A DNA stretch of 64,000 bases, taken from contig NC_092675.1 in assembly GCF_964355755.1 (NCBI RefSeq), forward strand, positions 26,204,412-26,268,411, written 5' to 3'. Shown piece by piece: positions 912 through 64,000 of the stretch; positions within the stretch are counted from its first letter, which is position 1, and each line of letters begins with the position of its first letter. Position numbers and translations under genes: made by a program. Source of the DNA: Antedon mediterranea (lineage: Eukaryota > Echinodermata > Crinoidea > Comatulida > Antedonidae). Under the pieces are notes generated by a model. The model was not told where the DNA came from. It searched no databases and worked only from the letters and a program-made list of their open reading frames with translations.

Positions 912-963
912 ATGATTGTTACCGTAGTTGTAATTTTACTTCAAGGAGCTGTTTCATGTCTGG
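912..963 (+). CDS. Signal-peptide exon of copy 1
   Basis: Starts at the only ATG that opens a hydrophobic leader (MIVTVVVILLQGAVSCLG) and ends in phase 1 at a GTAA donor. The same MIV...CLG pattern opens copies 2, 5 and 7, which supports this start. Confidence 0.85.
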
Positions 964-3900
964 GTAATATTTGAATTAATATTTGTAATGAAGATGAGAA
1001 TTAAAATCTATTATTTATTTAATTCCTAAATAATGTAATTTTCTTGCAATAATAATAATAATATAATAAGGGATAAGGGAAAATAACATTTAAGGGAAAT
1101 ACTTATTTATTGTGTTAAGTGAAATATCTCACTTAAGTGTGATTGGTGAATAGGCCTACGGCCACTGATTTCATCAATAACGTTGGTGAACGATAAAAAC
1201 AACAACTAGTACTTTCCTTATAGAAATCAACAAACTATAAATTTTGTATCATAATCAAACAAGATTTCATTCAATCAGTTTCGTACAAATTGTTTTCCAG
1301 TTCATAAATCACACAATTTACCAATAGTTCATAATGAGAACAACACTATGTCACTTCTGCAATTTGTTTTGTTTTCGATAAATAATACGTTTTACATATA
1401 TTTCTTTTCAGGAAATGATGGATATATTACTGTTATGAATATATTTCCAAAACACGACAATGATTACCAATACCAATGTTACATTCCTACTGGCTATACT
1501 GGTTATAGTCTGAGTTACGGTAGATCATTTGCAGTAGCCAATGATGACAGTTTAGATGAAACATCGTGGGACGTGCCGCGTGGTGATCGTCGATATGTAG
1601 CACCTAATGTTGGCATGGGAGTGTATTATTGCAAGATAGTCAACAATGGTGTCACTACAGTCGTTCAAACTACAAAAATAAGAGATGATGGTAAGGTAAT
1701 TTATGATCATTTAGTCTTTGTTTGATATTTGTTATTATTGAAAAACGAAAAATGTACTTGGTACGTTTTGATTTACTTTTCTATTTTGTTCTATTGTAGT
1801 GTTATTGGCTTTGTTACGCGCTTTGTATGTTTGTATTTTCGATTAGTTTCTGAGAGTGCTTGGCTGATTTTTTTTAATTGTAAATATAATTGTAATCTCT
1901 AATCACTGAAAACACGTACTTTTTACCAATAAGGCTATTTGATTTGTTTGTATTGTGAGGTGGTATTGTTGTGATATTTAGAACTATTAGAACCTATATG
2001 GACAGCGTAAGCCCAACACTAGACTTTGTATTTGTTTTTTATTTATCTATTTTTGTATATCGATCTCAGAGTAAACATACTTTCTATGTATATTGTATAT
2101 GCCAATGACAATAAATGGAAATAATTTTCCACTGATAAATGAATTATATATTAAAATACCTTGTAGTTTTATCCTGCTTTATTAGTCTAACTTTGTTCTT
2201 TTTTTCAAAACAGCCCTAACATCAGTAAATTATAAAGACACAGCAACTGTGAATATTGGAGATGACGTCACAATTAGGTTTAATACTAATTTAAACAGTA
2301 GTATATAAAAGATGGTTCCACCCCATTTAAAATGAAAACGGAAACGAGCATGATCTTAAACAATTTAATATATTTTTGTAATTATTTTTTTTCAAATGAA
2401 ATATAATGTCTTGTTTTCGGAACAGCCTTAATAACGCCTGGAAATTCTAAAAACACAATCACTGTAAATGTTGGTGATGACGTCACAATTCGATTTGATA
2501 CGGAATTGACCAGTGATTTAGTGTGGAGGAAAGATGGCTCTACTCCATTAAAGATTGGAACGGAAAAGAGCATAACCTTCGACCCAGTAGAGACCAGTGA
2601 TGCTGGGGTATACGAGATGTATGAGGATGGTAACCGGGAAGATCGCAGGCACGCGTTTATCAAGTTGATTGTACGAGGTAAAATAATAACAAACCAAAAT
2701 AAATGTATGATTAAGTGTATTGGATTATTATTACGTTAGAAATGGTTTACAGTAATCATTGGAATGAATAAAAATTAAAACAAATAACTGTTCGTATATT
2801 TTAAAATGTCAGTAGTATACTACCTATCTGAAAAAAAATATGTTTAGAAGGTAGGCCTAATAGGTATTACATTTTTGTTTCAACTTTCTGACCACATAGC
2901 TTTGTAATCATCAATTACATTTAAAGTAACACGTTTATTTAACAAAATGATTAAGCCTATCCTCAATAAATTTGATAATATAAAACATATTGCAACCCCT
3001 CCGGCATAAAACAGTACTACATACTTACAGTACTATACCGTTCAACTTTGGGTTTTCTTGTTTTAATTACCTCCGCCAAGGAGATTATAGTTTCACTCCT
3101 GTATGTGTGTGTGTGGGTGGGTGGGTGGGTATGGGTGTGTGGGTGTGTGCGTGTGTCTGTGAACAGCCTGGAGGCCACAGTTTTCATTCTCCCCAAATTT
3201 GGCCACAATGATCTATGCCCCAAAAGCTCGGACGAGTTCGACTTTGAGAGGAAAAGGTCATAGGTCAAGGTCACAAAAACATATTTTACTGCCTAGAGAC
3301 CACAGTTTTTGAGTTTTTATCCGATTCTCACAAAACTTAGCCACAATGATCAATGACTCATCATATAATTGTGGTTAAATTTTGATGGGTCAGGGTCAAA
3401 GATCCACCAAAAAAAAAAAATAAAAAAATAATAAAAAAAAAAAAACAAAACAAAAACCTCAGCGGGAATTGAACCAACGATCTCAACTGTGAGAGGCTGG
3501 ACACATAACCATTACACCAAAGTCTCATCCACAACTTTTTCGTGTGCAGTTAGCCTATTTAGGCCTACACTTAGAACTAATAAAAAAAAAATTTAACATA
3601 TATATATATTTTCCGGAGGCATTTATGTAGTGAAATTGTACAGTAGACGGAGGTTTGTACTCTCAGAGTACCCTCTAGTTATAAAGTAACTATTTGATAT
3701 CATTTCTTTAGAGTGTCCACGTCACAAATGGGGTCCACCTGACTGCACTGGTGACTGTGAATACTGCTATAATGGAGGTGTGTGCGATGACAAAACAGGA
3801 TTCTGTATCTGTGCACCTGGATTTATGGGAACCACATGTGAAACTGGTAATTAAGGAATACTATTTTACAAAAATAATTATTACATTCAAGATTCAATTC

Positions 3901-6900
3901 ACTTTTTCTAGAAATCATAACTGGAATGATAAATATTCTAAATATATTCATTGTTCTGCTCAGTGGAGCATTTTCAGTGGACATACAGTACAGTACCAAG
4001 ATATTTATAATTGTTAAAGATTTCAATTACTGTACAATTTACAAGTGGTTCAGGGTACATTTTCAGTGAAAAATTGATAAAAAAAAAAGGTTTTTTATAA
4101 TAATTAACAAATAATTTTGTTAACTAAAACATATAGGCTATAGGCCTACATCTACTAAAAAAGAAGGTTTAAAATAATACAAAATGTTTTAAAAAGATAT
4201 TTAAAGACCGGGGGAATCTCAATAGTGTTGTATAATGACATAAGACTACAAAACTCATAGTTTCCTGTGAACTAGAGTTGAGATCCTAGCAACTTGCGTT
4301 ATTTTCACTTAGAATGCGGCTACAATAAACATGGTTGGAATTGTGAAAATCGTTGTTCCTCGCTGAACCGTAACAATGCATGTATAAACTATCAGTACTG
4401 TTTACCTGATTCATATGGATGCAGCTGTGTTACTGGTTACAAAGGATTGAAATGCAATACAGGTAGATAAACAATGCTTCACGAAACATTTATTAGTTTT
4501 GCTTTTTGTTATTTAGAATGCAATGGCAATAGGCATGGTTGGAATTGTGAAAATCGCTGTACCTCAAAGAACCGTAACTATGCATGTAGATACATTCAGT
4601 TCTGCTTACCTGATCCATATGGATGTAGCTGTGTTACCGGTTACAAAGGATTGAAATGTGATACAGGTAACAAGACAATTCTTATAAAATAATGTAAACA
4701 TTACACAAATCCCCTTTTATTATATGTATAGTTGGGATTAAAACAAATATTGGCCTATATCAATGTCGTACCCATTGCCGTTGTCATTACACTGCAGATT
4801 AAACATTCAAATTATGACATTTTTATAGTTTTAAAAGATGTTTTTTTTAAATTGTTTTTTTTTCATTAATTAATTAATTGATTTTAAATTTAGTGAGAAT
4901 CAATATCATAATGCCTTTAATGAAAATGCAGCAGTCTTAAAATTACGTGACATGTTTCGAGAAATCTATTCTTTTCATCAGAACTCTACCTACTTCAGTT
5001 TAAATGCGGAATCTGCAGAACGATGAAGCATTCAGCATTCGCGAGGGCCTTATACCGTTCTGAATCCTGCAGATGTTGACAAATATGAGAAGCCCCGTAC
5101 CTGAGATGCTCACGCATCCGCATTGATAACCGTCTATTTGTTTCACCAATATACATGAAATGACATCTCATACATTTACATTTATAAACAACACGGCAGC
5201 GGAACATCTCAGGGACAGGGTCTTTTAAACTAAACTAAACTTAAACAACATTTTATATGATTTGAATGCCAATTATTATATAATTTTAAATTATTTAAAA
5301 CAGAATGTTCATCGGATACATTTGGTTCAGACTGTGCTCAAACTTGTCATTGTAAACAAGGTGATTGTGATCGGTATACAGGAATATGCACTAACTCATC
5401 TTGTGCATTTCCATGGATGGGATCTAACTGTCAAAGTAAGATTATGACAAATGTACTAACATATCCTAATTTAGATGGTAAAAGAATACTAGGTTAATTT
5501 GAAAAAAAAATTGAGATGTGTTAAATAAATTTGAAATCTTGACCCATATTAAATATATGGCCTTTCTCGGAGCCTAACGCTGATGCATTTACCCGATTCT
5601 AAGTATCATATGGATATTTGGGAATACAACATCGGCTGACATGAAACGAACTTTGTTACATTTGTATTTTGTAGAATGTCAATCTGGATTTGACGGAGAA
5701 AACTGTGAAATTGAATGTCCATGTGAATGTTACATGACTGGTAGATGCATAGAAGGCACATGTAATACTAATTGGCTTGAACCTGACTGTGAAAATAGTA
5801 AGTCAAGTATTAAATGATTGGTTTGGTTAAATTAACCAAATAAAGTAATTTTTATTTTACCTTTTATTAGTTAGATTTGATGTACAAAATCGAATAATGA
5901 TAAAATTATAATATTTTGTTATAAAGGTTATGTTTGTTCGGGTGATGTGGTGGATGATGTTGTTGCGTAATTGGTTGCAATCTTACTCCCTGGTTCCATA
6001 TTATTTACATTTAACTTAACTATTTTGTATTTGTTAAGCGAGCGCTTAAATAATAGTAACACAGGAATAACGAAGCAGTAAGCTTAAGAATACAACAATT
6101 TGATAGTAATGCATAACAAGTTCATTTGTGTATGAATATAGTGTATATTTTAGAACGAATTTTGAAGTACATCAATTTATAAACTTGTGTTGAAAACATC
6201 AGTTCTAATATCTGATATATTAATTTTAATAATTATTGCATGTTTCCACAGGAATCATCAACACCACATTTACACCTGCAAATAATGGGCAACACACAAC
6301 TACATCTTGTTCGGTTTATCAGACAGGTATATACGATGTTCAAACAATGATTGCAGTGACAAATAATGACGTAACTGAGAACATTACAACAGTGGTAGAG
6401 ACCAATAGAGATGGTCAGAATATAACACATACATTTGCTGTGATAGCTGATGCTGATTCGATATACAAATGTGTAATTTTACGAAAAGGTTATTTTGTTG
6501 AAAGTGATATCACCACAGAAATATTTCGTAAGTATATAAATCATATAACATTCTTTATTATGTATAATTGAAATTACTTAGGCCTATATCTTGTTAATAT
6601 AGACATATATTTTTATATTAAGGATTACCATTATATAATGGACGTTTGACCATACTAAGTATTTCAAGCTCCTCTATCACCATTGAATGGACAGCATGGG
6701 ACAACAATACTGACGATAGAGATGGTCCAGTTGTTGGATACTTTTTATACCACAAACTGAACAATACTGACGAATGGAATAAAGGGCTATATCAGGATTC
6801 TTTATCAGGCACTGTTAATGGGTTGATGTGGGATAAAGAATGCACTTTTGGTGTTTCAGCTGTGAGACCTGGTGAAGGGGGTGAAGGACCAATTGGAGAA

Positions 6901-8417
6901 AATACAATAACTGTAAAAACACTTTGTGGAAGTAAGATATTATCATTTATAATCAGAAATTGTTTTTTTTTTCATCTACATGCATATTTATTTCATACAA
7001 TTATAATACGTTTATGTTTAATAAATCCATCCCATGGGTTTGTTCCATTTTATAATCAGAAATTGTTTATAACAATGCTAATATAATCTAAATAAATGTT
7101 TCTTCACTTATTTACTTACTTTGTATTGCATCATACTCAAAATCAACGCAGTGAATCAGCTAAAAAATACGAATTAGAACAAATTGAAATATACTTGCTG
7201 TATGCAGCTTAATGTGTAGTTATTTTGTTTCAGTAAGGTATACAGAATGTGAAGATGCATCCAAATATTCTGGTAGCCTGATTGGTGGGTCTTTAGCAGT
7301 TGGCGTAGTTATTGGTATTCTAAGTACTATCATAACAACTCAATGGTAAGTTACATAGGTTTCAATCATATTAAAACTCTATTTAATTAAATGTAAAGTA
7401 TGTTAGGCACTTAGGATGTAGTTTATATTTGTTAATTTTCTGATTCTTATTTTTCAGTATTTTGTATATTTTTTAAGACGCATTTAAGTTTGTTAAGAGT
7501 CTCTTTCTGTGTTAATACAAATTAAAAACAAGCATTCTAAATTGTGTATACTTATTTTAAAGCAAACACAGATTAAATAAGAATAAGAGGAAATCTGATG
7601 CCTCAAATGCTCAACACGTTTACCAGAATTATACAAGTAACGACTCTTCATCAAGGTAAATTGTCACAAGTCTGTTGAATATATTCCAAGAAAAATGTCT
7701 CTGCTTTTAAAGTTACTTGACACATGACACACATGAATAATTCAGTTAATAAGAATATATGAAATTCAATTTTCTTTTTATTCTCAGTTATTTGTTATTT
7801 AAATATTGTATTCTTCTTTCTTGCTACAGAATCTACAAGCCTTAGCCTATTTACTATTTTATTTGCAAACACGTCAATGCAAAATAAATAATCCTAATTT
7901 ATTTTGAAAACAACTTTCTGAAGTAAAATACCTGTAGATCAGTTTAATCCAGTATCTTCTAAATTACACCGTCAATTTGATTTTCGTAGTTTTAATGTAG
8001 GTCTATAACATGAAACGATATTAAAGATATTTAGAGATCAATTAGTAAGGTTTGTTTATTTTAAAGCAATCCAAATCAACTTAAAAATGCGAGCAAATCT
8101 GGTAAGAACTCATCAAATGAACACGTTTATCAGGATTATACAAATGAGGGTAACAACTCAGAATACGCAACTTGGTAAGTATAAATTACAATTTAATTTG
8201 ATTGTGATGAATATTTATTTGATTATTTTGTAGAATTCGAGAATATTTAAAATTTAAAATAGATTGCGAGAAAAGTTTAAATGTAAGATTTTTACTTATA
8301 TTTCCTTAGTTACTTACATTTTTTTATATTTTATTTCATTTCAGCAATTATCCAAATCAAGAACGTGTTTATGAATTACCTGAACTTAATCCTGATGAAT
8401 CTGCTTATGTAAATTAG
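912..8417 (+). CDS. Tie-like kinase-less receptor, copy 1
   Basis: Exons: 912-963 (signal peptide), 1412-1690 (Ig1), 2426-2677 (Ig2), 3712-3846 (EGF1), 4313-4462 and 4517-4666 (EGF2 twice), 5304-5435 (EGF3), 5675-5797 (EGF4), 6252-6527 (Ig3), 6623-6931 (FN3-1), 7246-7345 (transmembrane), 7563-7655, 8067-8174 and 8345-8417 (cytoplasmic). All joins keep frame, giving 743 codons. Homology to the TIE1/TEK ectodomain is seen in the EGF2 block CLPDxYGCSC, GEGGEG in FN3-1 and the Ig2-EGF1 join. Ig1 and Ig3 carry the usual Cys pair; Ig2 has DAGVYEM where an Ig Cys would be. There is no kinase. The tail has VYQNY, VYQDYTNE, VYELP and a terminal YVN. Unlike copies 2-5 it lacks FN3-2, and EGF2 is doubled. 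An alternative acceptor for the transmembrane exon at 7234 is also in frame. Type I plasma-membrane protein; function inferred. Confidence 0.87.
2214..2368 (+). pseudogene. Relic Ig2 exon in intron 2 of copy 1
   Basis: Follows a good acceptor (CAAAACAG) and opens like the intact Ig2 exon 200 bp downstream, with matching codons through the DDVTIRF block. It then hits an in-frame TAA at 2306-2308 and a deletion that removes the VWRK segment. A later piece around 2330-2365 still resembles the KIGTEKSM part before similarity fades. It is a decayed tandem duplicate of the Ig2 exon and should not be in the mature message. Confidence 0.75.
3255..3273 (+). promoter_or_regulatory. Triple AGGTCA half-site array
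   Basis: Three perfect AGGTCA hexamers: the first two are separated by one base (DR1 spacing) and the third abuts the second (DR0). The hexamer is the core half-site of RXR, HNF4, COUP-TF and related nuclear receptors. A further GGGTCAGGGTCAAAG stretch lies at about 3379-3393. It sits in a dispersed repeat, so it may be only a feature of that repeat; regulatory use is not shown. Confidence 0.35.
3457..3528 (-). repeat. tRNA-derived (SINE-like) fragment
   Basis: Read on the minus strand it has an A-box-like TGGTGTAATGGTTATG, an anticodon-loop-like CCTCTCACAG (a CTC anticodon would suggest tRNA-Glu) and a B box GGTTCAATTCC. The two acceptor-stem halves do not pair, and it is embedded in A-rich repeat sequence. 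I therefore call a tRNA-derived repeat rather than a working tRNA gene. Confidence 0.5.
4313..4666 (+). repeat. Tandem duplication of the EGF2 exon in copy 1
   Basis: Two 150-bp phase-1 exons, 4313-4462 and 4517-4666, separated by only 54 bp. Both are intact and encode ECxxNxHGWNCENRC...CLPDxYGCSCVTGYKGLKC. All other copies have one EGF2 exon. The very short intron is consistent with a local duplication. The first unit has CLPDSYGC and the second CLPDPYGC. Confidence 0.85.
4905..5215 (-). mobile_element. Penelope-like retroelement, 3' fragment (GIY-YIG end)
   Basis: A minus-strand open frame (5207-4995, about 70 codons) reads VVYKCKCMRCHFMYIGETNR, then RLSMRMREH. This fits the GIY-YIG endonuclease motif (Y..C..C..YIGET.R.L..R..EH) found at the C-terminus of Penelope-like polyproteins. 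Downstream on the same strand (about 4985-4945) is CTGATGAAAAGAATAGATTTCTCGAAACATG, resembling the GAAGAAG...TCGAAAC 3' end of such elements. No reverse transcriptase remains, so this is a 5'-truncated dead copy in the EGF2-EGF3 intron of copy 1. Confidence 0.7.
7246..8417 (+). CDS. Transmembrane and cytoplasmic exons of copy 1
   Basis: The transmembrane exon encodes a glycine-rich hydrophobic segment (about 23 residues, with GVVIG) without charged residues. It is followed by a basic stop-transfer stretch (KHRLNKNKRK) at the start of the next exon. Tail exons 1 and 2 resemble each other (basic start, a Ser/Asn-rich middle, then HVYQNY or HVYQDY), so one probably arose from the other. The last exon gives VYELP and ends YVN-stop. 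YQN, YTN and YVN fit the pYxN consensus for the Grb2 SH2 domain, and YELP fits the pYxxP preference of Crk-type SH2 domains. That these sites are used is inference. Confidence 0.75.
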
Positions 8418-10587: not shown

Positions 10588-13500
10588 ATGATTGTTAAAG
10601 TTGTATTGTTACTTCAAGTTACTGTTTCCTGTCTGGGTAAGTTAAACAAAAATGTGAAGCAGAATTGATAATTCAATTCGATCTAAAATACAACATTCTT
10701 CAAATAACAGTTTAAAATTGCATATTTTCTCGGCAGTATCATGTCGACAATACACAGCACTTGCTAGTTTCTATTCCAGATAATATGACACCGTTCCAGA
10801 ATCAACTACTGCATACAAACCATTGATTTTCTAATCTAAAACAGTGTTTAATTAATTAAATTGTAATAAATTATGTGTTAGTGCACGTCGTTAGGCAATA
10901 TGTCTGTATGTAGTTTATTCAGCAAAAAAAAAAAAAAAAATAGAAAGAAAAAGCACTGGATTACAATGACAATTTATTGAACTAACGCATTTTTTGACAG
11001 CGGCAAATTACTACTCGACATAAAGGTGCGCACGTTCACATAAACTACAAAAATTAATCAAATTACAATACTACTATAACATTAAAAAAAATCAATAAAG
11101 ACGATTGAAAAGTTCCCTGCTATGTACAGGGAACTGTCCCCATCCCACCCTCATATTTCCTCTACCAGTCTCAATTTTTCGTCAATCAACATAATATTAA
11201 AGAGATATTATCACTGTTTTAAATTTTAATCTTCATTGTTCATGTTTTTGCAACGCACGCACATTCTAACGCACATTTCCGGGTTCGATAAAGTTTTGGC
11301 GGATCTTCTATCATGGGGGGAAATTTCTGGCGCCCGAACACTTTTTCCAGACATAAATACACTCCCGTTAATTTAATAATCCTGAACTCTGTTGACACAA
11401 AAATAATTTATTGTCAATAAATGTTGTATTACACAAACTTTTCACCACCCATGGTCTTCATAGTGAGATATACCATTACCGGAAGTATTTATTGTTTTAC
11501 CAATTAAGTTTATAATATGTTTTTCTCACAGGAAATGACGGATATATAACGATTTTAAACCTGTCTCCACAAAGCAACGCCGACACAGTATACCAATGTT
11601 ACATTCCTGATGCATTCATTGATTATAGTTTGAGTTACGGTAGATCATTTGGAGTAGCGAATGGTGAACAAGAAAATGAAATTTCATGGTATGTGTCAGG
11701 GGATGGGTCGCGGTTTGGAAGGTATGTCACATTAGCAGTAGGCATGGGAGTATACCATTGCAAGATAGTCAACAATGGTGTAACTACAGTCGTTCAAACT
11801 ACAAGAATAAGAGATGATGGTAAGTCAAGTTAGGATCATTTGTTCTTTGCTACTATACGACACTATTAATGAAAACGAATACGGCCTAGTAACTAGATTC
11901 ACTAGATAGGCGTACACCACTCTAAGTTTTTGACTTAGTTAATTTACTTTTACTATTCGCAAAATGTCAAATATTACGTGAGTTATGTTTATTTGATTTA
12001 CTATAAGAGTCTACTCTACTACTTGATCTGTTTTGATGTGAGGTGGTGTCTTGTGATTTGTAAAACTTTATTTTCACAGCTCTAATATTGCATTTTAAAT
12101 ACCATATGTGTCCTACTACTAGGCTACTTTTTTTAAACAGCCTTAATAACGCCAGCAAATGATAAAAACACAGTAACTATAAATGTTGGCGATGATGTCA
12201 CAATTACATTCAACACGGATTTAACAAGTGATTTAGTGTGGAGGAAAGATGACTCTACTCCCTTCAAGATTGGAACAGAATCGAGCATGACCTTTGACCC
12301 AGTAGAGACCAGTGATGCTGGTGTTTATGAGATGCATCAGGATGGTAACCGGGAAGATCGTAGACATGCATTTATCAATTTGATTGTACGAGGTAAAAAA
12401 CTGAAGACGTAACAAAGTATAAATGAATAAACCTATTATTTTTTTTTAAATTGTAAAAACATATAATTTGAATTTATTATTATTAAAACAATCAATTTTG
12501 TCTAATAAAAACGTAATTTATCTCATTATACTGTAATGTTGTGGTACACAGTATGTCGGAGAAACAACAAAAAATGACCAATGATCAATTATCAATCAAA
12601 ACATTAAAGATTGATCAACCTGTAGTTGCACTGACCACGATGTTGAATGGAGCGACAAAACTCGCAAAACTACCAGAAAACCTTCTGGACTTAACATTTG
12701 CAACATACTTCCTAGGATCGGTAACATTATTACATATGCATCCTAAATTCCAATATCAACAAAGTGTTATATTATTTTTCCATTGTTTTCCATTCCTAAA
12801 TTGTTTATATCTACCAATCGTTATTGTTCTATACTCTACTCTCTCTCTTACCCTATATTCACCAGTCTGTGTCTTCTTTGGTTTTATTTCTTTTATTCCA
12901 GTCCATTCAGACAGCGCTTGCCTTGTAATTATTCTAAACTTTCCCGAAAGTTCTGGAATATTTTCTGGCTATTTTACTTTATCATTTTGATTTTATTTCA
13001 TTTGTATTTTCATTGAAATCCACCCACTGATACCCACAGCATTGTCATTTTCAGTAATTTGCCTTTGGATTAATAAGTATAATTTAATATACATTGAACA
13101 TCCCTGTGCGGACAACTTTCACAACGTCATCAGTTACGTACACCCTTTGTTTAGTTGATTAGTTTCATTTTAGATTTATATAAGTTTATATATATATATA
13201 TAAGTTTTCAAGCATGCTTTTATAAAATGTTTGGTCTGTAGGCCGTGATAACAATTTGATCAATATTCCGAATATATACTAAAGTAGCAAATCAAAATAG
13301 GCAAGTAAAGAAAATTAAGTTCTATGAAAGATTTAATATTACTTTACAGAACATTATGTACCATGTTTTTTTTCTTAGCCTGTCCACGTCACAGATGGGG
13401 TCCACCTGACTGTACTGGTGACTGCGAATACTGCTATAATGGAGGTGTATGCGATGAAAAAACAGGATTTTGTATCTGTGCGCCTGGATTTAAAGGAGCC

Positions 13501-16500
13501 ACATGTGAAACTGGTAAGGAGAATGATAACAATACATAAATTACATTATTTTTTAATACACGAAGAAGCTTTAAGGCTGATATATTTATGTTTCTATTGA
13601 AATATATTGATATCAAACGGTATTTAAAATAGAACAAAAACGCTCATTTCAATATCTAATTTTAAATATTTTTAGATTCGTATGAACGAAAACATTTACT
13701 CTATTATTTTGCTTTTGTTTCCTAGAATGCAATGGCAATAGACATGGTTGGAATTGTGAAAATCGTTGTTCCAGTAGTGGTGGTCTTAATTCGTGTAGAA
13801 ACTATCAGTTCTGCTTACCTGATCCATATGGATGTAGTTGTGTTACCGGTTACAGAGGGTTGAAATGCGATACAGGTAAGACAATTAATATTATAAAATA
13901 ATGTAAACAATACACAAATCCATTTTTGTTATAGGCCTAGTTGCGATTTTAAAAAAAATATTGGCCTATATTAATATTATAGTATTTATTGCCGTTATTT
14001 CACCGCAGTTTAACATTCTAAACATACGAAATGTTTATAGTTATTAAAGTATTTTAAACTTTTTTTAATGGATTCATTGATTTTAAATTATCTCACAGTA
14101 TGTCCACAGGGTACATTTTGGTTCAGACTGTGCTCAAACTTCAAATCACATAAACGTTCTAAAACAGAACAAAATTAAATAACAGATACAATTATGTGGT
14201 TAATTTATTTTATCTTTAAACTGTTTTAAACAACAACAACATAATATTTATGACACACGGAGACACAACCTGCTTTGTTTCCGATATCCAAAAAAAACAT
14301 TCATATAATGAACTCAGTATAAAACTGACTCCAAATAACGAGAGGCAAGTCATGATTCAACATATCAACTCGTTTTCTTTCTTTTTTTTAACCTAAATAA
14401 TTTGAAAGATTTGATACCGGTACTTGATTTTTTTTTATATTTTAATCTAAATTTTGCTTGCGATTAAAAAACAAATGGGGTGTCTCGTACTGTATTATAA
14501 ATAACCTCGCTTTAAAGAGTTAAATTCAACGACGTTTACGTTTATTGTATACAACCACACAACTTATAGTGGAATCCTCAATGTGGTGTGGATCCTAGGA
14601 AATGGAGGAGTATATTAGACATAAAGGCGTGTTTTGCACATCCCAAATGTATTATGTTTATACGTTTTTAGCCTTTTGTTTTCTATATCGTTATATTAAT
14701 GCAAACAAATTTAAATTAACAGAATGTTCACATGGTACATTTGGTGCAGACTGTGCTCAAACTTGTCACTGTAAACAAGGTTATTGTGATCGATATACAG
14801 GCAGATGCACTGACACTCAAGATTCGCCTTGTGCGTACCCATGGATGGGATCTAACTGCCAAAGTAAGATTAAGACAAATTTACAAAAATATTTTAATTG
14901 AGACAATAAAACAATACTAATGTGAAAAAAAAATGTTTATTTTAATAGAAGACGTGTTAAGTTAATTTGACATTCTTACCTTTTTTAATTACGGTACTTT
15001 TCTCGAAGCATAAAGCTGATGCATATTTCAGGGATACCTGATTCTCAGTGCTGTATCTTCACATATACTACAATAGTTACCCAGTATCATAGGAATATGT
15101 AAACACAGCATCGAATGACAGGAAACGAACTTCGTTACATTTGTATTTTGTAGAATGTCAACCTAACTTATATGGCGAAAACTGTGATATCGAATGTAGG
15201 CCCAATAAACCATGTGATTGTCACAGGAATGGCAGATGCATAGAAGGCACATGTGATTCTAATTGGCTCGAACCTGACTGTGAAGTTGGTAAGTCAAGTA
15301 TTAAATGATTTGTTTGGTTAAATTAACCAAATAAATTAATTTGTATTTAATTTTTTTATTAGTTAGATTCGATGTACAACATCAAATAATGAGTAAATTA
15401 TAATACTGAGTTATAAAGGTGTTATTTGTTCGGTTGATGTGGTGGCATGTTGCTGCGTAATTGGTTGCAATTTTACTCTTCCCTGGTTGCAATAAATTGA
15501 TTATGGACCTTATTATAGCGAGTTAGTAATAAAGGAATAAACAAGCAGTCAGCTAAGAATATAATAAATTGAATATTGCATAACAAGTTAATTTGTGTAT
15601 GAATATAATACATATTTGAAAACTGACGTTCTCCGGACGATTGTTGAAGTGTATCGACCGAAAATGCGAGGTATAAAAACAACAATTCTAATATATAGTA
15701 TATTAGTTTGAATAATGACTGCATGTTTATTCCACAGGAGTCCTTAATACCAAATTTACACCTGCAAATAATGGGCAACGTACAACCGCATCTTGTTCGG
15801 TTTATCAGACTGATACATACGATGTTCAAACAATGATTGTAGTGACCAATAATGACGTCACTGAGAAAATAACAACAGTGGTAGAGACAAATAGAGATGG
15901 TCAGAATATAACACGTGCATTTGATGTGATAGCTGATGCTAATTCGACATACACATGTGTAATTTCACGAAAAGGTTACTCTGTTGAAAATGACATAATC
16001 ACAGAAATATTTCGTAAGTTTATAATTTATAACATTCTTTATTATGTACAATTAAAATCGTTTATATCTTGGTAATATATATTTTTATATTAAGGATTAC
16101 CTTTATATAATGGACGTTTGACCATACTAAGCATTTTAAGCTCCTCTATCACCATTGAATGGACGCCATGGAACAGCAAAACTGATGATGGAGATGGTCC
16201 AGTTGTTGGATACTTTTTATACCACAAACTGAGAACTACAAATGATTGGAAGAAGACATTATACGAGAATTCTTTATCTGGCAATGTTAGTGTGTTGATG
16301 TGGGATACAGAATACACATTCGGTGTTTCTGCTGTGAGACCTGGTGAAGGAGAAGGACCAATTGGAAAAGAAAGTGTCACGGTAAAAACACTTTGCGGAA
16401 GTAGGTTATATGTTGATTACTTACCGTTATCTATTTACCTTCAAATAGATCTATCGAGCTGCAGCAATTATTGATTACACTATACACTTTTTCTAAAATA

Positions 16501-41845: not shown

Positions 41846-41847
41846 AT

Positions 41848-41897
41848 ATATATATATATATATATATAATTATTTACAGATAATATATATATATATA
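41848..41897. repeat. TA microsatellite
   Basis: Two runs of alternating TA (about 11 units, then about 7) separated by AATTATTTACAGA. Confidence 0.8.
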
Positions 41898-46900: not shown

Positions 46901-49900
46901 AATATCGTTCTTGCTTGTCTACTTTTACGTATTTTCTTATACAAACGTACATTACAATACTTTAATTATCTACATCAATATTTATTTAAAGTTAATCTAC
47001 TATTCTATTTGTCTATTAACATTATCACACAACAATTATAATTAAAAAAACTCAAAATAATTATATAGTGATTCTTTTAAATGCTTATATTACAGAATGT
47101 TCACCGGGTACATTTGGTGCAGATTGTGCTCAAACATGTCATTGTAAACGGGAGTGTTGTGATAGATATACAGGCCGATGCACTAGCATCGAAGACTCGT
47201 CTTGTGCATTCCCATGGACGGGATCTAACTGTCAAAGTAAGATTGTCAATAATATAGATATCGCATAATTACGATTTCTGTGTTTTTTTTTAATAAATTG
47301 ATGTTTCTCTCTAGGTTCCACACGTATGTGTTTTAAAAATCATTCCAAGATTTTGGTATTATCTCAAACATAAAGTACAGCGCCCAAATAATTAAAATAA
47401 TCAAATTGTACATTACTTACAATACTTTGAAATGATTTAATTAGAATGCCAGCCTCAACTTTACGGAGAAAACTGTGATATGGAATGCAAAGCTTGCAAC
47501 GAATGTCACAGACTGACTGGAAAATGCATCACTTGTGCACCGAATTATCTTGAACCCGACTGTGAAATTGGTAAGATTTTGTCAGCAGACATTGTGAACT
47601 TGTCAGACAGTAATATTTTAATTGATTTATAACCATGCAATGATATACTTTTGTAATATCTAAAGGAATCATCAATACCACATTTACATCAGCAAATAAC
47701 GGCCAGAGTACAACTTCAACATGTAAAGTCTACCAAACCGGTGCTTATGAAGTTCAGACAATGATTATCATGATGAATAATGGCGTCACTGAAAACTTTA
47801 CAACATCGTTGGAAGCAAAGCAAGATGGTCAGAATATAATTATATATACATTTTCTGTGACAGCTGATGTTGATTCGACATACAAGTGTGTAATCTCGCA
47901 TGAAGGTGTTCTAGCTCAGAGTGTAATCATACCAGAAATAATGGGTTTGTCAGATTTATTCTGTCTTTATTCATAGTACCGAATAAAAGATTAGCAATTG
48001 TTTTACATTCTTATTATTTTTATTATTTTTTTACTAATTTTACTGATATCTGACTATTTGCTTTAACAGTGTATGACCATACTACATATTTTAAGAGATA
48101 GTTTTTACTTTAGGAAATTTACATGTCTAAACCAGTAAATAAACTAGATATCATCTTATTCATTTGTTAAATTATCTATTACAGAAATGAGTTTTACTAA
48201 CATTTATAAATGTATTGATTATGTTTTAATAAACAAACTAATGAGAGGGAAGTCTTCATTTGACGTTCGATCTTTGTTTGATCAGAATTATGATGACCTC
48301 ATAAATATCGAATCATTACTTCCCTCTCAGTTTAGCATTTTTTAAATAATCTTATTATATTTTATACTATACAAACTTCAAACTGTTTATACTTTTTGAA
48401 ATCAATATAGATTAATAACTTTTTGTAAAAATTTCAACCTACACTTATAAATACTGCTCATTTTCATTTTTACATTTCTGTATTTTTACAAGAGCATTAA
48501 TACGAATCGTTTGATATAGCTTAATCATTATACATTTTAAGGTTATCTACATTGTATACATTTAAGTAATAATGTTTTCTTCAAAAGGTTTACCTTTCTA
48601 CACCGGAAGTCTGGCTATACTTAATATCACACGTTCCTCCATTTCAATTGAGTGGACGGCATGGAAAACTAATAGACCCACTGACGACAGAGATGGTCCA
48701 GTTGTTGGATACTTTTTATATCACAAACTTATAAATAATGAAGATTGGAAGAAAGAATATTTGAACGTGTCGTCAGGCACTGTTACTGGACTGAAGTGGG
48801 ATACAGAGTACTCGTTTGCTGTTTCAGCTGTGAGAGCTGGTGAAGGAGGCGAAGGACCAATTGGGGAAAAAGAACTCCTAACAAAAACTCTATGCGGAAG
48901 TAAATATATGTTGTTACTATAGGCCTACAGCAATGATAGCAATTAATTTGGTCTTTGATTTAAACAGTTCCTAGAGTTAGTTCAAAGGCTGCATTTTTAT
49001 TACCGTTAAATTTATAAATCTATAAGTATTTATATAACAATGTAGGGTGGTAATAGCATATTCAAAATCTGGTATACGTTTCTGAAAAAATAAATTTGGG
49101 TGACTTAGTACGTAGTCATTTTGTTGCCAATACTCTATGCTTTTTTCCATGATTGTATTTTCACAGTTCCTTTACCAGTTCAGACCGTAGAACACCAGCT
49201 TTTAACAAACGGAAATGTCAAAGTTTCATGGAGAGTATGTGTAAACAGGAATATTATTTTAAGGCCTTTAGCTCTACACAATCCTATAAAAACAAATAAC
49301 CTTTAAATAAAATTAAATAAATATTTTCAAAATAAATGTTAAACTTGGAGTTCATTTTTCTGTTTTAATTTTAGAGAAACCTGGATGTCGAGTCATTGAA
49401 ATGTTCCAGTAATACATTAATCTATAACATTTACCTAAAGGTGATCAACAATAAAGGATATCGAGAGGATGTTTACCACACCATTAAGAATCAACTTACT
49501 ATCGATAATATTGGAGTTGCAGACAGTTACGTCATTTATGTCACGATCTCTAATAAAGACAGTGAGAGTATTTCTGTTAGGAGTTCAATTGAACAAGACA
49601 TTGGTAGGTGGATTAGGTTAAATTCTACAGTGTTACTTTATTTTATAAGCAGACGCCTCAGGCAGGTAGAAATTCCACTATCAACAATTGCAATAATTGT
49701 CTCTATGTCAAACTTCAATCGATTTTATTTCAGGAAGTGCTAATTCATCCATTTCCGTTGCGATAATTGGTGGCGCTGTTGCAGCTGGTGTGTTTATTGG
49801 TATTGTATTTACCATTATGATAACACAATGGTAAGTTCAAGTTCAAATTATGTTGTAAACTATTATGTTAGGTTGTTATGTTTATACCGATTACAAGTAG

Positions 49901-50995
49901 ACCTAAATGAATGTAAAGTAGTCCAATGATATTTCTTAATATTCATTCGTCAGTGGAAAATTACTTCTATTTATTGTCATTTGCATATAAGATATACTTA
50001 CATACAATTAAATTAACTAAAACGATAGATATGTGACATTGATATAAAACAAACATTTAATTGGCGTTTCTCACACGAATATAACAAAGTTTTGTCTTTT
50101 TTTAAACATTTTGTCTAAATCTAAGTCAAATTCACGTATTATTATCAACAATATGATCTATAAAATATAGCTTAAGTTCCCATTATAGAAAACCAATTTG
50201 TTATGCGTCATTATAAGTTCATTATCAAGTTTATGAACGTTAATTTTACTTTGTGTTTGTTTCAAAGTAAACAAAAACTACGTAAGAATGTAACCAAGCA
50301 TGATAACCATGAGTCGAATGGTCAAAATGTTTACAAGAACTATGCAACCAGTGATGAACACGTTTACCAAGATTTTGAATCAAATGAGAAGGTTTACCAG
50401 AATTCTGCAACAACTAACGAATCCGTATCACGGTAAATAATAAATGTGCTTTGTTATTTTGTCAAATGCATTATTTAACAGATAGTTAGTCGGAGTTAAT
50501 GCATAATTATAATAGCATCATTTTTTATTTTGTTTTTTTGTATCATTGTGTTTAAATAATGGTTGATTTTCCCCTCATTGAATATTTGTTGTACATGCTA
50601 ATGAATTTTACATTGATGTAGATCATTTCTTTCTTATCATTTCAATTATCTCGTAATGATATTATACTTGCTGGTTTCAGCAGAGCAAAACTACACATAA
50701 ATGCGAGTAAATCTGCCGATGAAATGTCAGTCGAGTTCCACGTTTATCAAAATTATGAAATTAAGGATAACGATTCAGGAAATCCCTCATGGTAAGAAAT
50801 TAATTTGACACAATGGTAATACAAAACAACAGCTTCTAGAGACAGTAACAATTTCTAGCTACTGAATTAATCCAAATGATATATTCAAAATTATTGTTTA
50901 CATTAAGGTAATATTTGTTGTTTTATATTTTCAGCAATTTTGAAAATGGTGACGAACCACGTGATCATTCTTACGAATCTGTTGTTTTGAATTAG
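43978..50995 (+). CDS. Tie-like kinase-less receptor, copy 5 (frameshifted EGF2, expanded tail)
   Basis: Exons: 43978-44026 (signal peptide), 44260-44544 (Ig1), 45221-45472 (Ig2), 45920-46054 (EGF1), 46665-46815 (EGF2, broken), 47096-47236 (EGF3), 47445-47570 (EGF4), 47666-47944 (Ig3), 48588-48899 (FN3-1), 49167-49234 and 49375-49603 (FN3-2), 49734-49830 (transmembrane, AGVFIG), 50268-50432, 50681-50791 and 50935-50995 (tail). EGF2 is 151 bp instead of 150, with TAA at 46715-46717. Skipping this phase-1 exon leaves 769 codons in frame. The Ig3 donor is GTTTGT where its sisters have GTAAGT. The first tail exon is enlarged to 165 bp with VYKNYA, VYQDF and VYQNS; the second has VYQNY. The last exon has SYESV and ends VVLN-stop, having lost both the YxLP and YVN motifs. 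Confidence 0.75.
46093..46180. mobile_element. Possible Penelope-like 3' end fragment
   Basis: AGGTGGATCAAAGCATATTG, followed by ATCGAAACGTC, resembles the ...GATCGAAACGTC 3' tails I associate with Penelope-like elements, and it lies in the EGF1-EGF2 intron of copy 5. No coding part is visible. Weak support. Confidence 0.3.
46665..46815 (+). pseudogene. Frameshifted EGF2 exon of copy 5
   Basis: Aligned to the 150-bp EGF2 exons of the other copies it has one extra base. The first part reads CGANRHGWNCENRCC in frame, then TAA at 46715-46717. The remainder (NKQFCLPDPYGCTC, SGFKGISC) is perfect in the +1 frame. Splice sites look intact. A recent one-base insertion, or an assembly error, would explain it. 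Confidence 0.85.
48231..48345. repeat. Small element with short inverted ends
   Basis: AAACTAATGAGAGGGAAGT near 48236 is mirrored by ACTTCCCTCTCAGTTT near 48337, a ~12-bp core inverted repeat around a ~75-bp centre. It may be a miniature inverted-repeat element in the Ig3-FN3 intron of copy 5. Target-site duplication is not clear. Confidence 0.45.
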
Positions 50996-52557: not shown

Positions 52558-52732
52558 ATGATTGGTAGGCCTACAGTTCTACTCTTGTTTCAACTTATTT
52601 TGTCCTGCTTTGGTAAGTCAAAGTTTAAAAATAATTCATGCAGATATAAAAAAAATATACAATATTATTTTCTTGTTCCAGATATCTGCATATTTTTACA
52701 GTCTGAAGATATATGAAGACTATACACAGCAA

Positions 52733-53327
52733 AATTCTGATTCTTGTTTTAAGAAAAAAAAAACTTGTTTCAAGCAAAATATTTCTTGAAACAAGTAAAT
52801 TTTGCCTTGTCCGTATTTCAATACTTTTTTGTTTACCAAGAATCGTAAAATTCTTAACAAGAATCACACAAATTCTTATCAAGAAAATTATTCTTATCAA
52901 AAAATAATACTTTAAGAACAATATTCTTACCAAGATTTAAATTGTTTTTTTCATTCTTGTTTTAAGCAGTATCTGCCTTAAATTAAGTAACAATTTATCG
53001 ATTTTTAAAAATAGAATTCTTGTTTCAAGCAATATTTTTCTTAAAATAAGTAAGAATATTCCGATTTGTATTTTTTTTGAATTCTTGTTTCAAGGAAGAT
53101 ATTTCTTAAAATAAGTAAGAATATTCCGATTTGTATTTTATAGAATTCTTGTTTCAAGCAATATATTTCTTAAAATAAGTAAGAATATTCCGATTTGTAT
53201 TTTTTTGAATTCTTGTTTCAAGCAAGATATTTCTTAAAATAAGTAAGAATATTCCGATTTGTATTTTATAGAATTCTTGTTTCAAGCAATATATTTCTTA
53301 AAATAAGTAAGAATATTCCGATTTTTA
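52733..53327. repeat. Minisatellite with ~63-bp units in copy 6
   Basis: From about 53014 five near-identical units run head to tail, each with GAATTCTTGTTTCAAGCAA, TATTTCTTAAAATAAGTAAG and AATATTCCGATTTGTATTTT. Unit length is about 63-66 bp. Upstream (52733-53010) lie more diverged relatives, including a perfect inverted repeat CTTGTTTCAAG (52764-52774) / CTTGAAACAAG (52785-52795). The last unit fuses with the EGF4 remnant near 53325, replacing the acceptor and the first codons of that exon. Confidence 0.85.
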
Positions 53328-53763
53328 TGGAGAAAATTGTGATATGGAATGCAAAGCCTGCAACGAATGTCACAGACTAACTGGAAAATGCATCACGTGT
53401 GCAACGAATTATCTTGAACCCGACTGGGAAATTCTTTTCTTTCATTCTTTATTGTGAACTTTAGTCCGAGAGTGAAATAAACAGTAATGTTTAATTGATT
53501 TATAACCATGCAATGCATTTTTATGCATTTTTAATTCAAAGGAATCATCAATACCACAGTTACAAAAGCCAATAACGGCCAGAGAGTACAACTTCATCAT
53601 GTAAAGTCTACCAAAGTAAGACTGAATTGCTTCCTTTCCTTTACACTCTTATAACAATAGACTGATCGAGAGAGTAACATTTTAATTTTTACATTATTGT
53701 GATGTTATATTAAGACAGTCTTTTTCATGAGAATGACCAATGAGTTACATCTTAATTTTGTAG

Positions 53764-53892
53764 AATGCCAACCTAACTTGTACGGAGAAAACTGTGAAGT
53801 TGAATGCAATAAACCATGCGAGTGCCACAGAACTGACAGATGCATAAAAGGGACGTGTTTTTCCAATTGGCTTGAACCTGATTGTAATAATG
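53764..53892 (+). CDS. Surviving EGF4 exon in copy 6
   Basis: 129 bp, phase 1 to phase 1, TGTAG acceptor and GTGAGT donor. It encodes ECQPNLYGENCEVECNKPCE, then CHR and a CIKGTC...NWLEPDC end, closest to EGF4 of copies 1 and 2, whereas the remnant at 53328 resembles EGF4 of copy 5. The exon is intact but its gene is not. Confidence 0.65.
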
Positions 53893-56800
53893 GTGAGTAA
53901 AATGTTCAATGAAAATGGTAACATATTTTGGTTTTTAAGTAATTAATTTGTTATTCAACCGTTAATTAATTATATATAGTAAGTAGTGCGGCTCTAACTA
54001 TGTTATATTTTATATATACGTAGAAACAATAGACACAAAATATTGTGAAACATACATTTTCTGTCATAGCTGATGTTGATGCGACATACACGTGTGTAAT
54101 ATTGCAAAAAGGTATATCAGCTCAGAGTGTCATCTCTGAAGAAATATTTGGTAAATAGAATCATACTTTTTAAGGCTTCGTCATCTAAACAATTAAATTA
54201 CATTTAAAATGTCATCCATATTGTTTTCAATTTTTCTATTAGACTGCGTTAATTAATGGGGTGTATTACATCTAGTCCTAATCTATAAACAAATCCCATA
54301 TTTTTAAAAACAAAGTTAAACCATTTCAAGAGGAATTAAAACATGTTCTGAAAATATATTGCGTGAATTATATTATATTGTTTTAATGATTTGTATATTA
54401 TTTGCAGATGACCCTAATAGCCGTAATCACTTTTTCCATTAAAGATTTCTAGGTTGATACTAATTTTATTAGAGTATAATTTTGTACAGAATTAAAACAC
54501 TTCGTGATTAAAATTAGCTTACAACCTTAGTATTCCTGTGTTTTTCTGACATTTTACTTATATTTATTATTCTTTCAAACAGTATTCTTTAACAATTTCA
54601 GAATGTGAAGATGGATCAAATTCTGGTGGCATAGTTGCTGGTACTTTGATAGCAGGTGTGTTTATTGGTGTTCTAATTACTATCATGGTAACACTAGGTT
54701 AAGTTATAATAAATATGTATACATTTTGGCACTTCTGCTTTTCGCACCCGCTTGGTATTTCCACTACAAATTACAAACTAACTTTATCGTGGACCTCATA
54801 AGATACATTTTATGAGACTTCATGAAGTTCTTATGGTGCCAAATTCTGGTGTGCTATCCAAAGTTAGTTACCACATTTTGAGTCGAAATACAAGGTGGTT
54901 ACGAAACAACTGTTAAGATATATTACCTCACTCACAAAATCATAAATATGTTTTGGTATTTCGAAGGTTCGTATTACTTTTGAAAAAGACATTTCATACA
55001 TTTTATATCATACATCAATATTGGTTTTAGTTGATACAAACCAGGGAAGTGTACCTTTACCTGCATCAAGTAATTATTTTATGTTATTTATTTCAGAATA
55101 GTAGGCCTAATTTATTTCTTAAATTGTTGTCTTCAATTAATTCTGACAGACCATGTATTGCTGATTTTAAGTGAGATTTCGCTCTATGAATATTATTATT
55201 ACCGGTAATGAATGGTACAAATATGTATCATGCCTATTAATACTAATACTTAAAAGGAGGTATGCTATATCATGTCTTTGTGAAGAATATCAAAGCAATT
55301 GTATTGAATGTAGCAATACACTTTTAGATAATCCCTCGCCATTTAAATAGTGTGTGGTTTGAGTTGCCTTAATAATAGAGGAACGATGGTAAAACATATC
55401 TACAAACGTCAGTAGGATACCATCCAGGGTATTTGATTCATATGAATATATCATGAAATTGTTAATTTCACCATAGAAAGGACCAAATGAATGGTTTAGT
55501 ATAATCTGGATTTAGACTGTCAACCTACATTTCTGCAAGTCATGAATTAGTAGTATAAACAAAAATCTCATCAGTTGTTTGTGAAATTATAGTTTAAAGA
55601 ATGTGTGGCAGGGCAATGATAATGTCTCTCGGAGGACTGAGATATGTAAATACTTATAAAATACATTAGGCGATAAAATAACAGGTCAAATACATATTTT
55701 AGTCAATCAAACCGATTATAAATATAAATATGACTTTCAAAATGAATTGACGTCAATTCAACTAATAATATGTTTTGCGTTTTTGTTTTAAAGCAAACAA
55801 AGACTAGGTAAGAATAGAAGGAAATCTGATAAAGATATGTCAAATTTTCAACACGTTTACAAGAATTCTACAATTTACGGTTCTTCTCCTTCATGGTAAA
55901 AGTCTCTTCTTTTGTTTTATTAAGTCAAATGATGATTTTGAGATGAAATAAAACACAATTAAACACGCGTATTTACAATATTCTATATATATAATCATCT
56001 AAGGATTGAGAAAGAATGAATATTTTGTCTTATTTTTCTTCATCCGTTTCTTATACTGTATTTCGATTTTTGTGGAGCATTTTTACAAACTATGCTAATT
56101 TGTATATGCTTTTGTTGAAAACAATTTAAAACAATTATTAGATTATAGACATTCTCAACCAGATTTTATTTCCTTTTGAAACACATGGTGTACAGCAAGC
56201 CTACTGTAACTTGGTGTTTATTAACCATGCAGAATGAACAGTTTTATTCAGTTTAGTACAGATTAATTAATTTCTTTCAAAGCAAAATGAATCAACGAAC
56301 GAGTAAATCTAATGAGACCGTAACAAACAAGCCAGACGCGTATCAAGATTATAAAAAGGGTAAAGAATCCGATTACTCTTCGAGGTAAATGTCATTTTAA
56401 ATGTAAACTTTTTCTAATTATTAATAACATTTGTTATTTTACCAAATCAACAATGATGATAATAAAAAAAAATTAGACATTAAATATTTAATATTGAAAA
56501 AAAAATGAATAAAACATACATTGGTTTCAAATTGTTTGTTATTATATTATTTCAACGTTCACATGGATGTAATGTTTACTTACAATATTTATTTCATTTC
56601 AGGAAAAACCCAAATCAAGAAAGTATTTACGAATTACCTGATGAAAATGCTTATGATTATAGTTATGAAAATTAGTTGAAAGTAAAAATCATAGGATATC
56701 GCGGGTGTATAATCTAGGACATTGAGCTTCAAATAGCAACGTTTTAATTATCTAACACAGTTAGCTGAATTTCAACCGCTCAACTGGCTCGCTTTAAAGT

Positions 56801-63628: not shown

Positions 63629-63677
63629 ATGATTGTTACAACTCTAATCGTTATTGAAGCTATTGTTTCATGCCTAG
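63629..63677 (+). CDS. Signal-peptide exon of copy 7 (gene continues beyond the window)
   Basis: ATG opens MIVTTLIVIEAIVSCLG and ends in phase 1 at GTAAGT, as in copies 1, 2 and 5. It is preceded by an acceptor-like AATAGAAAAAC. The following 323 bp to the window end contain no Ig1 exon; in copies 1-5 the Ig1 exon starts about 230-900 bp after this exon, so it should lie just beyond the window. This is taken as the start of a seventh copy. Confidence 0.75.
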
Positions 63678-64000
63678 GTAAGTGCAAATTGTTATTATAA
63701 GGAGGAGGCTGTTTAGGCTGATATTTGAAGTAAGAATATATAAAATAAGGTATTTCTTATATTTTCTGGGAGAAGGTGATACGTATACAGAAAGTTACAT
63801 CCACAAAATGTATTCAAAGTGAATATGTTCATTCGTGCAATACCTTTAGTTTGATGATATCCCTTTTTACGTGTAATTCAACATTTCTAAATACCTTCAT
63901 GTAAATGTCTTACACAGTTTATTGTCTATCAACATAGAACCGTTCGTGCGAGAATCGAGGAGTTCTTCTAAACTAAGCATAATGTTACGTCACGTTTATT

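Follow-up and report, generated by a model that had tools for sequence, protein, structure and literature searches.

The 64,000-nucleotide stretch analysed here, from the genome of the feather star Antedon mediterranea, a crinoid (contig NC_092675.1; hereafter the window), carries a tandem array of genes that almost certainly encode receptors with an ectodomain of the Tie type but without a kinase. We give a probability of roughly 0.55 to the reading that these genes represent an old non-kinase branch of Tie-type proteins, whose products would act as docking co-receptors opposed by phosphatases carrying a Tie-type ectodomain. What is new here, judging from the predicted proteins, is that Antedon has two kinase-bearing Ties and also carries the Tie-type ectodomain on a tandem pair of tyrosine phosphatase domains; in the open-licence PMC text that we searched, we saw no account of an echinoderm Tie-type family that lacks the kinase or bears a phosphatase.

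Seven signal-peptide exons with a shared pattern lie on the plus strand at 912, 10588, 21420, 34303, 43978, 52558 and 63629, with 8.6-12.9 kb between consecutive gene-copy starts; they are 7 of the 12 candidates in the scan, the other five either lacking the shared pattern or lying inside other exons. The array is made up of five near-complete copies (1-5), a decayed copy 6 and a copy 7 that runs off the window end. The full domain order is signal peptide, Ig1, Ig2, EGF1-4, Ig3, FN3-1, FN3-2 (on two exons), transmembrane segment (TM), tail exons and stop, and copies 1-5 have the architecture Ig1-Ig2-EGF(3-5)-Ig3-FN3(1-2)-TM followed by a tyrosine-rich tail of 69-110 residues. Introns at the domain boundaries of the ectodomain are in phase 1, the intron within FN3-2 is in phase 0 and those of the tail are in phase 2. 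The exon models come from a purpose-written splice-aware protein-to-genome aligner, and the splice sites are partly built in, because it permits GT/GC-AG introns only; all donors and acceptors of copy 2 in its output are GT and AG. Copy 2 was modelled with 15 exons, and the modelled stretches of copies 1, 3, 4 and 5 with 13, 14, 12 and 12.

Three protein searches (211, 20 and 2117 matches, of which 120, 20 and 120 were listed) gave 250 distinct proteins, referred to below by P numbers; among these listed matches, 176 have a kinase, 15 have protein tyrosine phosphatase (PTP) domains and 59 have neither. The window exons yield four NCBI proteins of A. mediterranea exactly, namely P0003 (672 residues, copy 1), P0004 (696, copy 3), P0009 (606, copy 4) and P0013 (603, copy 5), each with a single predicted TM, while no NCBI protein equal to the whole of copy 2 was among the matches listed. 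The late start of P0009 and the out-of-frame start of P0013 are as expected, because copies 4 and 5 are frameshifted. The preliminary description had counted at least six plus-strand copies of the above layout and the start of a seventh. The seven signal-peptide exons agree with that count, but copy 6 has decayed to a remnant and copy 7 is present as a signal-peptide exon only, so that the layout applies to copies 1-5; the proposal of a multigene family is supported. The copies are as follows.

Copy 1, 912-8414, plus strand, reproducing all 672 residues of P0003, with five EGF exons and no second FN3 in the model: signal peptide 912-963; Ig1 1412-1690; Ig2 2426-2677; EGF1 3712-3846; extra EGF2 4313-4462 (absent from the NCBI model); EGF2 4517-4666; EGF3 5304-5435; EGF4 5675-5797; Ig3 6252-6527; FN3-1 6623-6931; TM 7234-7345; tail 7563-7655, 8067-8174 and 8345-8414, ending in VYELPELNPDESAYVN and a stop. 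The true Ig2 is preceded by a further, truncated piece that resembles Ig2 (2186-2305).
Copy 2, 10588-18720, plus strand, open in frame throughout its 15 exons: signal peptide 10588-10636; Ig1 11532-11819; Ig2 12141-12392; EGF1 13379-13513; EGF2 13726-13875; EGF3 14723-14863; EGF4 15154-15288; Ig3 15738-16013; FN3-1 16095-16400; FN3-2 16676-16749 and 17146-17380; TM 17627-17720; tail 18110-18208, 18365-18472 and 18660-18720, ending in ESAYVN and a stop, the tail exons being identical to those of NCBI protein P0001.
Copy 3, 21420-32235, plus strand, 14 exons, reproducing all 696 residues of P0004, which begins within Ig1; no EGF4 in the model: Ig1 21781-22068; Ig2 26193-26444, after a 4.1-kb intron; EGF1 26852-26986; EGF2 27544-27693; EGF3 27847-27987; Ig3 28555-28833; FN3-1 29035-29343; FN3-2 29786-29859 and 30116-30344; TM 30467-30563; tail 30876-30974, 31347-31460 and 32166-32235, ending in EESFYVN and a stop.
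Copy 4, 34303-41268, plus strand, reproducing all 606 residues of P0009, which begins downstream of the frameshift: signal peptide 34303-34354; Ig1 35036-35320; Ig2 36050-36297, frameshifted by a 4-nt deletion; EGF1 36494-36628; EGF2 36796-36945; EGF3 37171-37311; EGF4 37524-37652; Ig3 37795-38073; FN3-1 38210-38518; FN3-2 38779-38846 and 39208-39436; TM 39586-39694; tail 39976-40083 and 41169-41268 (two exons, not three), with YVN 12 residues short of the end. An Ig1-like remnant lies at 35430-35549, and the first FN3-2 exon is tandemly duplicated at 38592-38831 (119-base unit, 2 copies, 86% matches), the NCBI model taking the second.
Copy 5, 43978-50995, plus strand, reproducing all 603 residues of P0013: signal peptide 43978-44026; Ig1 44260-44544; Ig2 45221-45472; EGF1 45920-46054; EGF2 up to 46815, frameshifted by a 1-nt insertion; EGF3 47096-47236; EGF4 47445-47570; Ig3 47666-47944; FN3-1 48588-48899; FN3-2 49167-49234 and 49375-49603; TM 49734-49830; tail 50268-50432, 50684-50791 and 50935-50992, ending in YESVVLN and a stop, without YVN.
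Copy 6, 52558-56672, plus strand, decayed: signal peptide 52558-52612; an EGF4 fragment inside the open reading frame (ORF) 53311-53454 and EGF4 inside the ORF 53703-53897; partial Ig3 54033-54150; TM inside the ORF 54550-54699; tail exons inside the ORFs 55792-55896, 56257-56385 and 56484-56672. Ig1, Ig2, EGF1-3 and the FN3 domains were looked for in this stretch and not found. A spliced fit does badly here, scoring 183 where copies 1, 3, 4 and 5 score 2197-2626, with 287 positions of the template deleted and several exons that act as filler. Within this copy a 64-base unit is repeated 5.9 times in tandem at 52953-53328, overlapping the start of the EGF4 fragment.
Copy 7, 63629-63677, plus strand: represented by its signal-peptide exon alone, which reads MIVTTLIVIEAIVSCL followed by a split G codon and equals the first 17 of the 605 residues of P0010; the gene extends beyond the window.

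The G+C content of the window is 28-34% per 4-kb step; a tRNA scan found none, and a Pfam search with ten spacer or intron ORFs matched none of them (0/10).

The Tie-type character of the ectodomain, as proposed in the preliminary description, is borne out by sequence matches to PDB chains and by profile comparisons. In a PDB search with copy 2, matches 1-3 are TEK/Tie2 ectodomains (1e-46 to 8e-45) and the fourth is titin (6e-10); the TEK match spans the end of Ig1 to EGF3, with a gapped alignment between the two Ig2 domains. On both sides of this match, the similarity is carried further by a profile-profile comparison in which crinoid non-kinase rows, including window copies 1 and 3, were set against 17 Ties that bear a kinase: it reaches Ig1 (E 2.4e-8; 99 columns, 10 rows) and Ig3-FN3 (E 4.2e-16; 266 columns, 11 rows). 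The Ig calls rest on these PDB and profile-profile matches, because Pfam gives copy 2 FN3 alone above its cutoff; as to scavenger receptors of the PEAR1/MEGF10 type, a weak match to PF23301 (EGF_PEAR1L) in the same search fell below the cutoff, FN3 domains are present in the copies, and the trees described below contain no PEAR1 or vertebrate MEGF10 row. The EGF2 block reads CLPDPYGCSC in copies 1-4 and CLPDPYGCTC in copy 5, and the FN3-1 block reads GEGGEG in copies 1, 3, 4 and 5 and GEGEG in copy 2. Both blocks had been called specific to Ties; they are present and of Tie type, but the EGF2 block (CLPDPYGC[ST]C) is shared by phosphatase-bearing and enzyme-less proteins, occurring among the 250 listed in 147 of the 176 kinase, 7 of the 15 phosphatase and 46 of the 59 other proteins.

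Profiles of the Tie kinase and PTP domains were searched against every window ORF of at least 15 residues on either strand; the best E values were 2.8 and 1.3, respectively. In a control, crinoid-free profiles were run against 40-residue pieces of Antedon kinase and phosphatase mixed with the same ORFs, with a threshold of E < 0.01: all kinase pieces (6/6) and all phosphatase pieces (5/5) were recovered, and the best window ORFs reached only E 2.9 (kinase) and 0.47 (phosphatase). On these controlled searches we reject the idea that the window conceals exons for a kinase or a phosphatase, and the claim that no kinase lies between each tail stop and the next copy is supported.

We placed the copies among their relatives in two trees of Ig2-EGF3 segments. 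The first comprised 58 of 59 chosen rows, rooted with vertebrate Ties, the Antedon kinase P0148 having been dropped because its matched region was too short; the second comprised 70 rows, with 18 added, among them kinase-less amphioxus, tunicate, sea-spider and spider proteins, and six near-duplicates dropped. The first tree puts 13 of the 14 kinase rows from invertebrates on one side (support 89/74, graded open); its other side (98/95) takes in every row with a phosphatase or without an enzyme, together with a single amphioxus kinase. The corresponding supports in the second tree, whose bootstrap is not fully settled, are 96/84 and 96/96. The window copies group with the PTP forms of Antedon and Anneissia in both trees (99/99 and 100/99), and within this group the short-tailed and PTP forms of Antedon are interspersed, with mostly weak inner support. 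A clade uniting the short tails with the crinoid Tie kinases is rejected by the approximately unbiased (AU) test (p 0.009). From this pattern, the window copies quite likely belong to a separate, non-kinase/PTP lineage. The array does not look like a set of Tie kinases that recently lost the kinase. The preliminary description would have been refuted by domains placed outside the Tie family; this applies only in the sense that the copies branch apart from nearly all Tie kinases, and they are still Tie homologs.

Repeated gain or loss of PTP domains across echinoderms, with at least 8 changes forced by the starred branches of the second tree, is only a lead, because some rows without PTP may be truncated models. 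Three chelicerate proteins, P0032 and P0034 (Nymphon) and P0060 (Caerostris), have a Tie-type Ig2-EGF3 in which no kinase was found and lie on the non-kinase side on long branches; these sea-spider and spider rows hint, with unsure placement, that kinase-less Tie-type ectodomains are older than the deuterostomes. The amphioxus protein P0040, with a SAM domain (Pfam PF00536) and no kinase, pairs with the kinase-bearing P0130 (100/100), an apparent separate loss or gain of the kinase as far as the sequences go.

Elsewhere in Antedon, the matches listed include 16 relatives: two with a kinase, two PTP models and 12 with neither (P0001, P0003-P0006, P0008-P0010, P0013, P0121, P0122 and P0124). The preliminary description asked for a kinase-bearing Tie elsewhere in the animal, and two were found, P0147 and P0148, both with HRDLAARN and DFG present. 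P0002 has two PTP domains, the first with HCSAGVGRTG and WPD, the second with HCINGIGRTG and WPV. P0123 has four PTP stretches, starting with the end of one PTP pair, after which a new signal peptide and a complete receptor follow, and looks like two neighboring genes joined by annotation. For 16/16 of these relatives the longest contig is 31,698,884 bases, and on the strength of this equal contig size the phosphatase-tailed, kinase-bearing and short-tailed forms are probably on the same chromosome. Outside the window, P0121, P0122 and P0124 contain many repeated units resembling Ig3-FN3-1, followed in P0122 by a predicted TM and a 42-residue tail, an apparent internal amplification of the Ig3-FN3 unit. 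Four Antedon proteins are named 'angiopoietin-1 receptor-like' (P0001, P0004, P0009 and P0147); three of the four have no kinase, and the name should be read with this warning in mind.

Every one of the 15 PTP forms among the matches listed carries an echinoderm label (Antedon 2, Anneissia 1, Apostichopus 6, Patiria 3, Asterias 1, Lytechinus 1 and Strongylocentrotus 1), and none of those listed is from a brittle star. The motif HCX5R[ST] is found in 11 of the 15, and is not recognizable in P0007, P0017, P0054 and P0127. NCBI names for such proteins include 'uncharacterized protein' and receptor-type PTP (RPTP) mu-, kappa- or F-like.

Individual exons of the array are mosaic. In copy 2, the second FN3-2 exon shares 73% identity with that of the phosphatase P0002 and 33-41% with those of copies 3-5; Ig2 of copy 1 is 94% identical to that of P0002 and 80-83% to those of copies 2, 3 and 5; and P0001 matches copy 2 at 100% in the three tail exons, 90% in the TM and 63% in Ig1. 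In the FN3-2 tree copy 2 pairs with P0002 (89/92), and the remaining seven tested Antedon short tails group together (99/97); a single clade of all eight is rejected (p 0.017) in a test selected after the identities were known. Symmetric phase-1 exons would make exchange between members easy. We dropped the idea that tails switched several times independently within Antedon, since the Ig2-EGF3 data do not reject the short tails as a clade (p 0.129) and only the post hoc FN3-2 test opposes this.

The tails of copies 1-5 contain 6-8 tyrosines in 69-110 residues, with YxN in copies 1-5 and YxxP in copies 1-4; YVN forms the C-terminal end in copies 1-3. YxN is a Grb2-type site and YxxP a Crk-type site, and the proposal of an adaptor-type tail is supported by the presence of these SH2-type docking motifs. 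Y[VI]N occurs in the last 90 residues of 171/176 kinase, 3/15 PTP and 4/59 other proteins (P0001, P0003, P0004 and P0009), and its presence in the copies counts once, because the copies share ancestry. Copies 1-4 and the reading of copy 6 contain no motif of the type Yxx[LIVM], and copy 5 contains one (YESV); tails built on immunoreceptor tyrosine-based activation or inhibition motifs (ITAM/ITIM) are thereby ruled out for copies 1-4. We take Y1100 of Tie2 to be the tyrosine of its YVN, from a reading of the vertebrate tails. Y1100 and Y1106 of the Tie2 tail play a part in the phosphorylation of Grb14, and wild-type Tie2, unlike its kinase-dead form, is pulled down by the SH2 domain of Grb2 (PMC2978215).

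The ratio of nonsynonymous to synonymous change (dN/dS) was estimated with the Nei-Gojobori method and summed over the available copy pairs, leaving aside copies 6 and 7 and the two frameshifted exons (copy 4 Ig2, copy 5 EGF2). The values are 0.17 (EGF1), 0.26 (EGF2), 0.27 (EGF3 and EGF4), 0.29 (Ig2), 0.34 (FN3-1), 0.43 (Ig3), 0.45 (Ig1), 0.65 and 0.34 (the FN3-2 exons), 0.50 (TM), 0.39, 0.47 and 0.82 (the tail exons) and 0.87 (signal peptide). The ectodomain is conserved on average (0.17-0.65), and with module averages below 1 throughout, there is no indication of overall diversifying selection and we reject it, although averages may hide single sites. The tails have a mean identity of 0.49-0.51 among copies.

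A mechanism can be outlined, to which we give somewhat less than an even chance. A ligand or contact with a neighboring cell would gather the short-tailed receptors into clusters with a kinase, either a Tie or a cytoplasmic one; the tail tyrosines (YxN, YxxP; YVN in copies 1-4) would be phosphorylated in trans, the phosphorylated tails would recruit SH2 adaptors of the Grb2/Crk kind, and Tie-type phosphatases sharing the ectodomain would strip the phosphates. The copies would then be docking co-receptors within a set of kinases, phosphatases and adaptors, and the symmetric phase-1 exons would permit domain swaps among its members. In a wider and more doubtful version, which we hold only tentatively, one ectodomain would serve three outputs: a chromosome-linked crinoid set with a kinase, a tandem phosphatase or a YVN docking tail would exchange exons, and shared ligands or ectodomain contacts would set phosphorylation at one membrane site.

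Several observations weigh against the docking co-receptor reading. With Ig2-EGF3, the AU test does not reject a clade of every crinoid row, those with a kinase among them (p 0.107), or a clade of the Antedon short tails (p 0.129), and the tested clades were chosen after viewing the tree; in addition, the amphioxus kinase P0130 falls on the non-kinase side, several long branches are flagged, and P0148 is in neither tree. Family members of other species are automatic gene models, and the same chromosome is taken from equal contig size, a figure that does not contain gene order or distances. Copies 4 and 5 are frameshifted and copy 6 is decayed. In the tails, the last exon is near neutral (dN/dS 0.82), copy 5 has neither YVN nor YxxP, the tyrosines are only weakly more conserved than the other tail residues (32/45 against 214/385 pair cells in copies 1-4, p 0.056, the cells not being independent), and YVN, at three letters, could reflect chance or convergence.

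Some of these points would suit the explanation that the array consists of recently broken Tie kinases, that is, of tandem copies of a true Tie whose kinase exons were lost and whose remnants are decaying. The decay of copy 6, the frameshifts in copies 4 and 5 and the unrejected all-crinoid clade (p 0.107) are in line with it, but copy 2 is open end to end, NCBI models are matched exactly by copies 1 and 3, dN/dS stays under 1 on average, and tails of two or three exons with phase-2 introns recur in copies 1-5. Given in addition the AU rejection of the short tails with the crinoid Tie kinases (p 0.009), we reject recent kinase loss from a crinoid Tie as the origin of the array and consider this explanation very unlikely, even though the all-crinoid clade is not rejected. 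The copies might instead be membrane-bound decoys, competing for the Tie ligand or dimerizing with true Ties without signalling of their own. A whole ectodomain that is Tie-like, a missing kinase and drifting tails (mean identity 0.49-0.51, dN/dS 0.39-0.82) would be compatible with decoys, but YxN is kept in the tails of copies 1-5 and YxxP in those of copies 1-4, and with a gapped Ig2-Tie2 alignment the sharing of a ligand is not given; we regard decoys as unlikely.

A multigene array with mosaic exons could also belong to immune receptors that diversify in coelomocytes through an enlarged ectodomain repertoire and swapped exons, in line with the immune or coelomocyte role suggested in the preliminary description. 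SpTie1/2 are reportedly from coelomocytes, going by a title in a reference entry (Stevens, 2010). The coelomocyte proteome of the starfish Asterias rubens includes Tie-2-like kinase and RPTP-F-like surface proteins, whose activities the authors call counterbalancing (PMC13409769). An Asterias amurensis protein of the same NCBI name (P0132, RPTP-F-like) has a Tie-type ectodomain, which does not imply equivalence to the RPTP-F of the proteome. Averaged dN/dS gives no positive selection, however, and the cited coelomocyte work concerns other species and, for Tie, the kinase form, so that we see an immune role of this kind as distinctly unlikely. We retain docking co-receptors of an old non-kinase branch as the preferred reading.

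If echinoderms indeed use the Tie ectodomain itself as a mount for a phosphatase and for a docking tail, then the vascular picture would underrate both the age and the modularity of the Tie system, and a pre-endothelial role of Tie would become testable in a feather star. TIE1 and TEK have three EGF and three FN3 domains. With TEK/TIE2, TIE1 and SpTie1/2 the window copies share a homologous Ig1-Ig2-EGF-Ig3-FN3 ectodomain with the EGF2 block and a single predicted TM, and Y[VI]N near the C-terminus of the Tie kinases recurs as YVN in copies 1-4; they differ in lacking the kinase, in having 3-5 EGF and 1-2 FN3 domains and a 69-110-residue tail, in their tandem arrangement and in branching apart from the clade that takes in nearly all Tie kinases. 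Their nearest relatives in the trees, along with other short-tailed crinoid forms, are the echinoderm PTPs with a Tie ectodomain (Antedon P0002 and P0123, Anneissia P0007), which have the FN3-2 type of copy 2 but continue into PTP domains where the window genes stop after two or three tail exons. The vertebrate phosphatase VE-PTP has an ectodomain of FN3 domains only. Vertebrate Tie2 is under the control of VE-PTP (PMC10086590). The echinoderm proteins may also be set beside another kind of system. In paired activating and inhibitory receptors, such as KIR and CD300, one stock of ectodomains is mounted on different tails. The Tie-type proteins of Antedon resemble these in their shared ectodomain stock and varied tails, and differ in that the tails are kinase, phosphatase or YxN docking tails, with no ITAM/ITIM in copies 1-4; if the three outputs were real, they would form an invertebrate version of paired receptors in which the phosphatase is placed inside the family itself.

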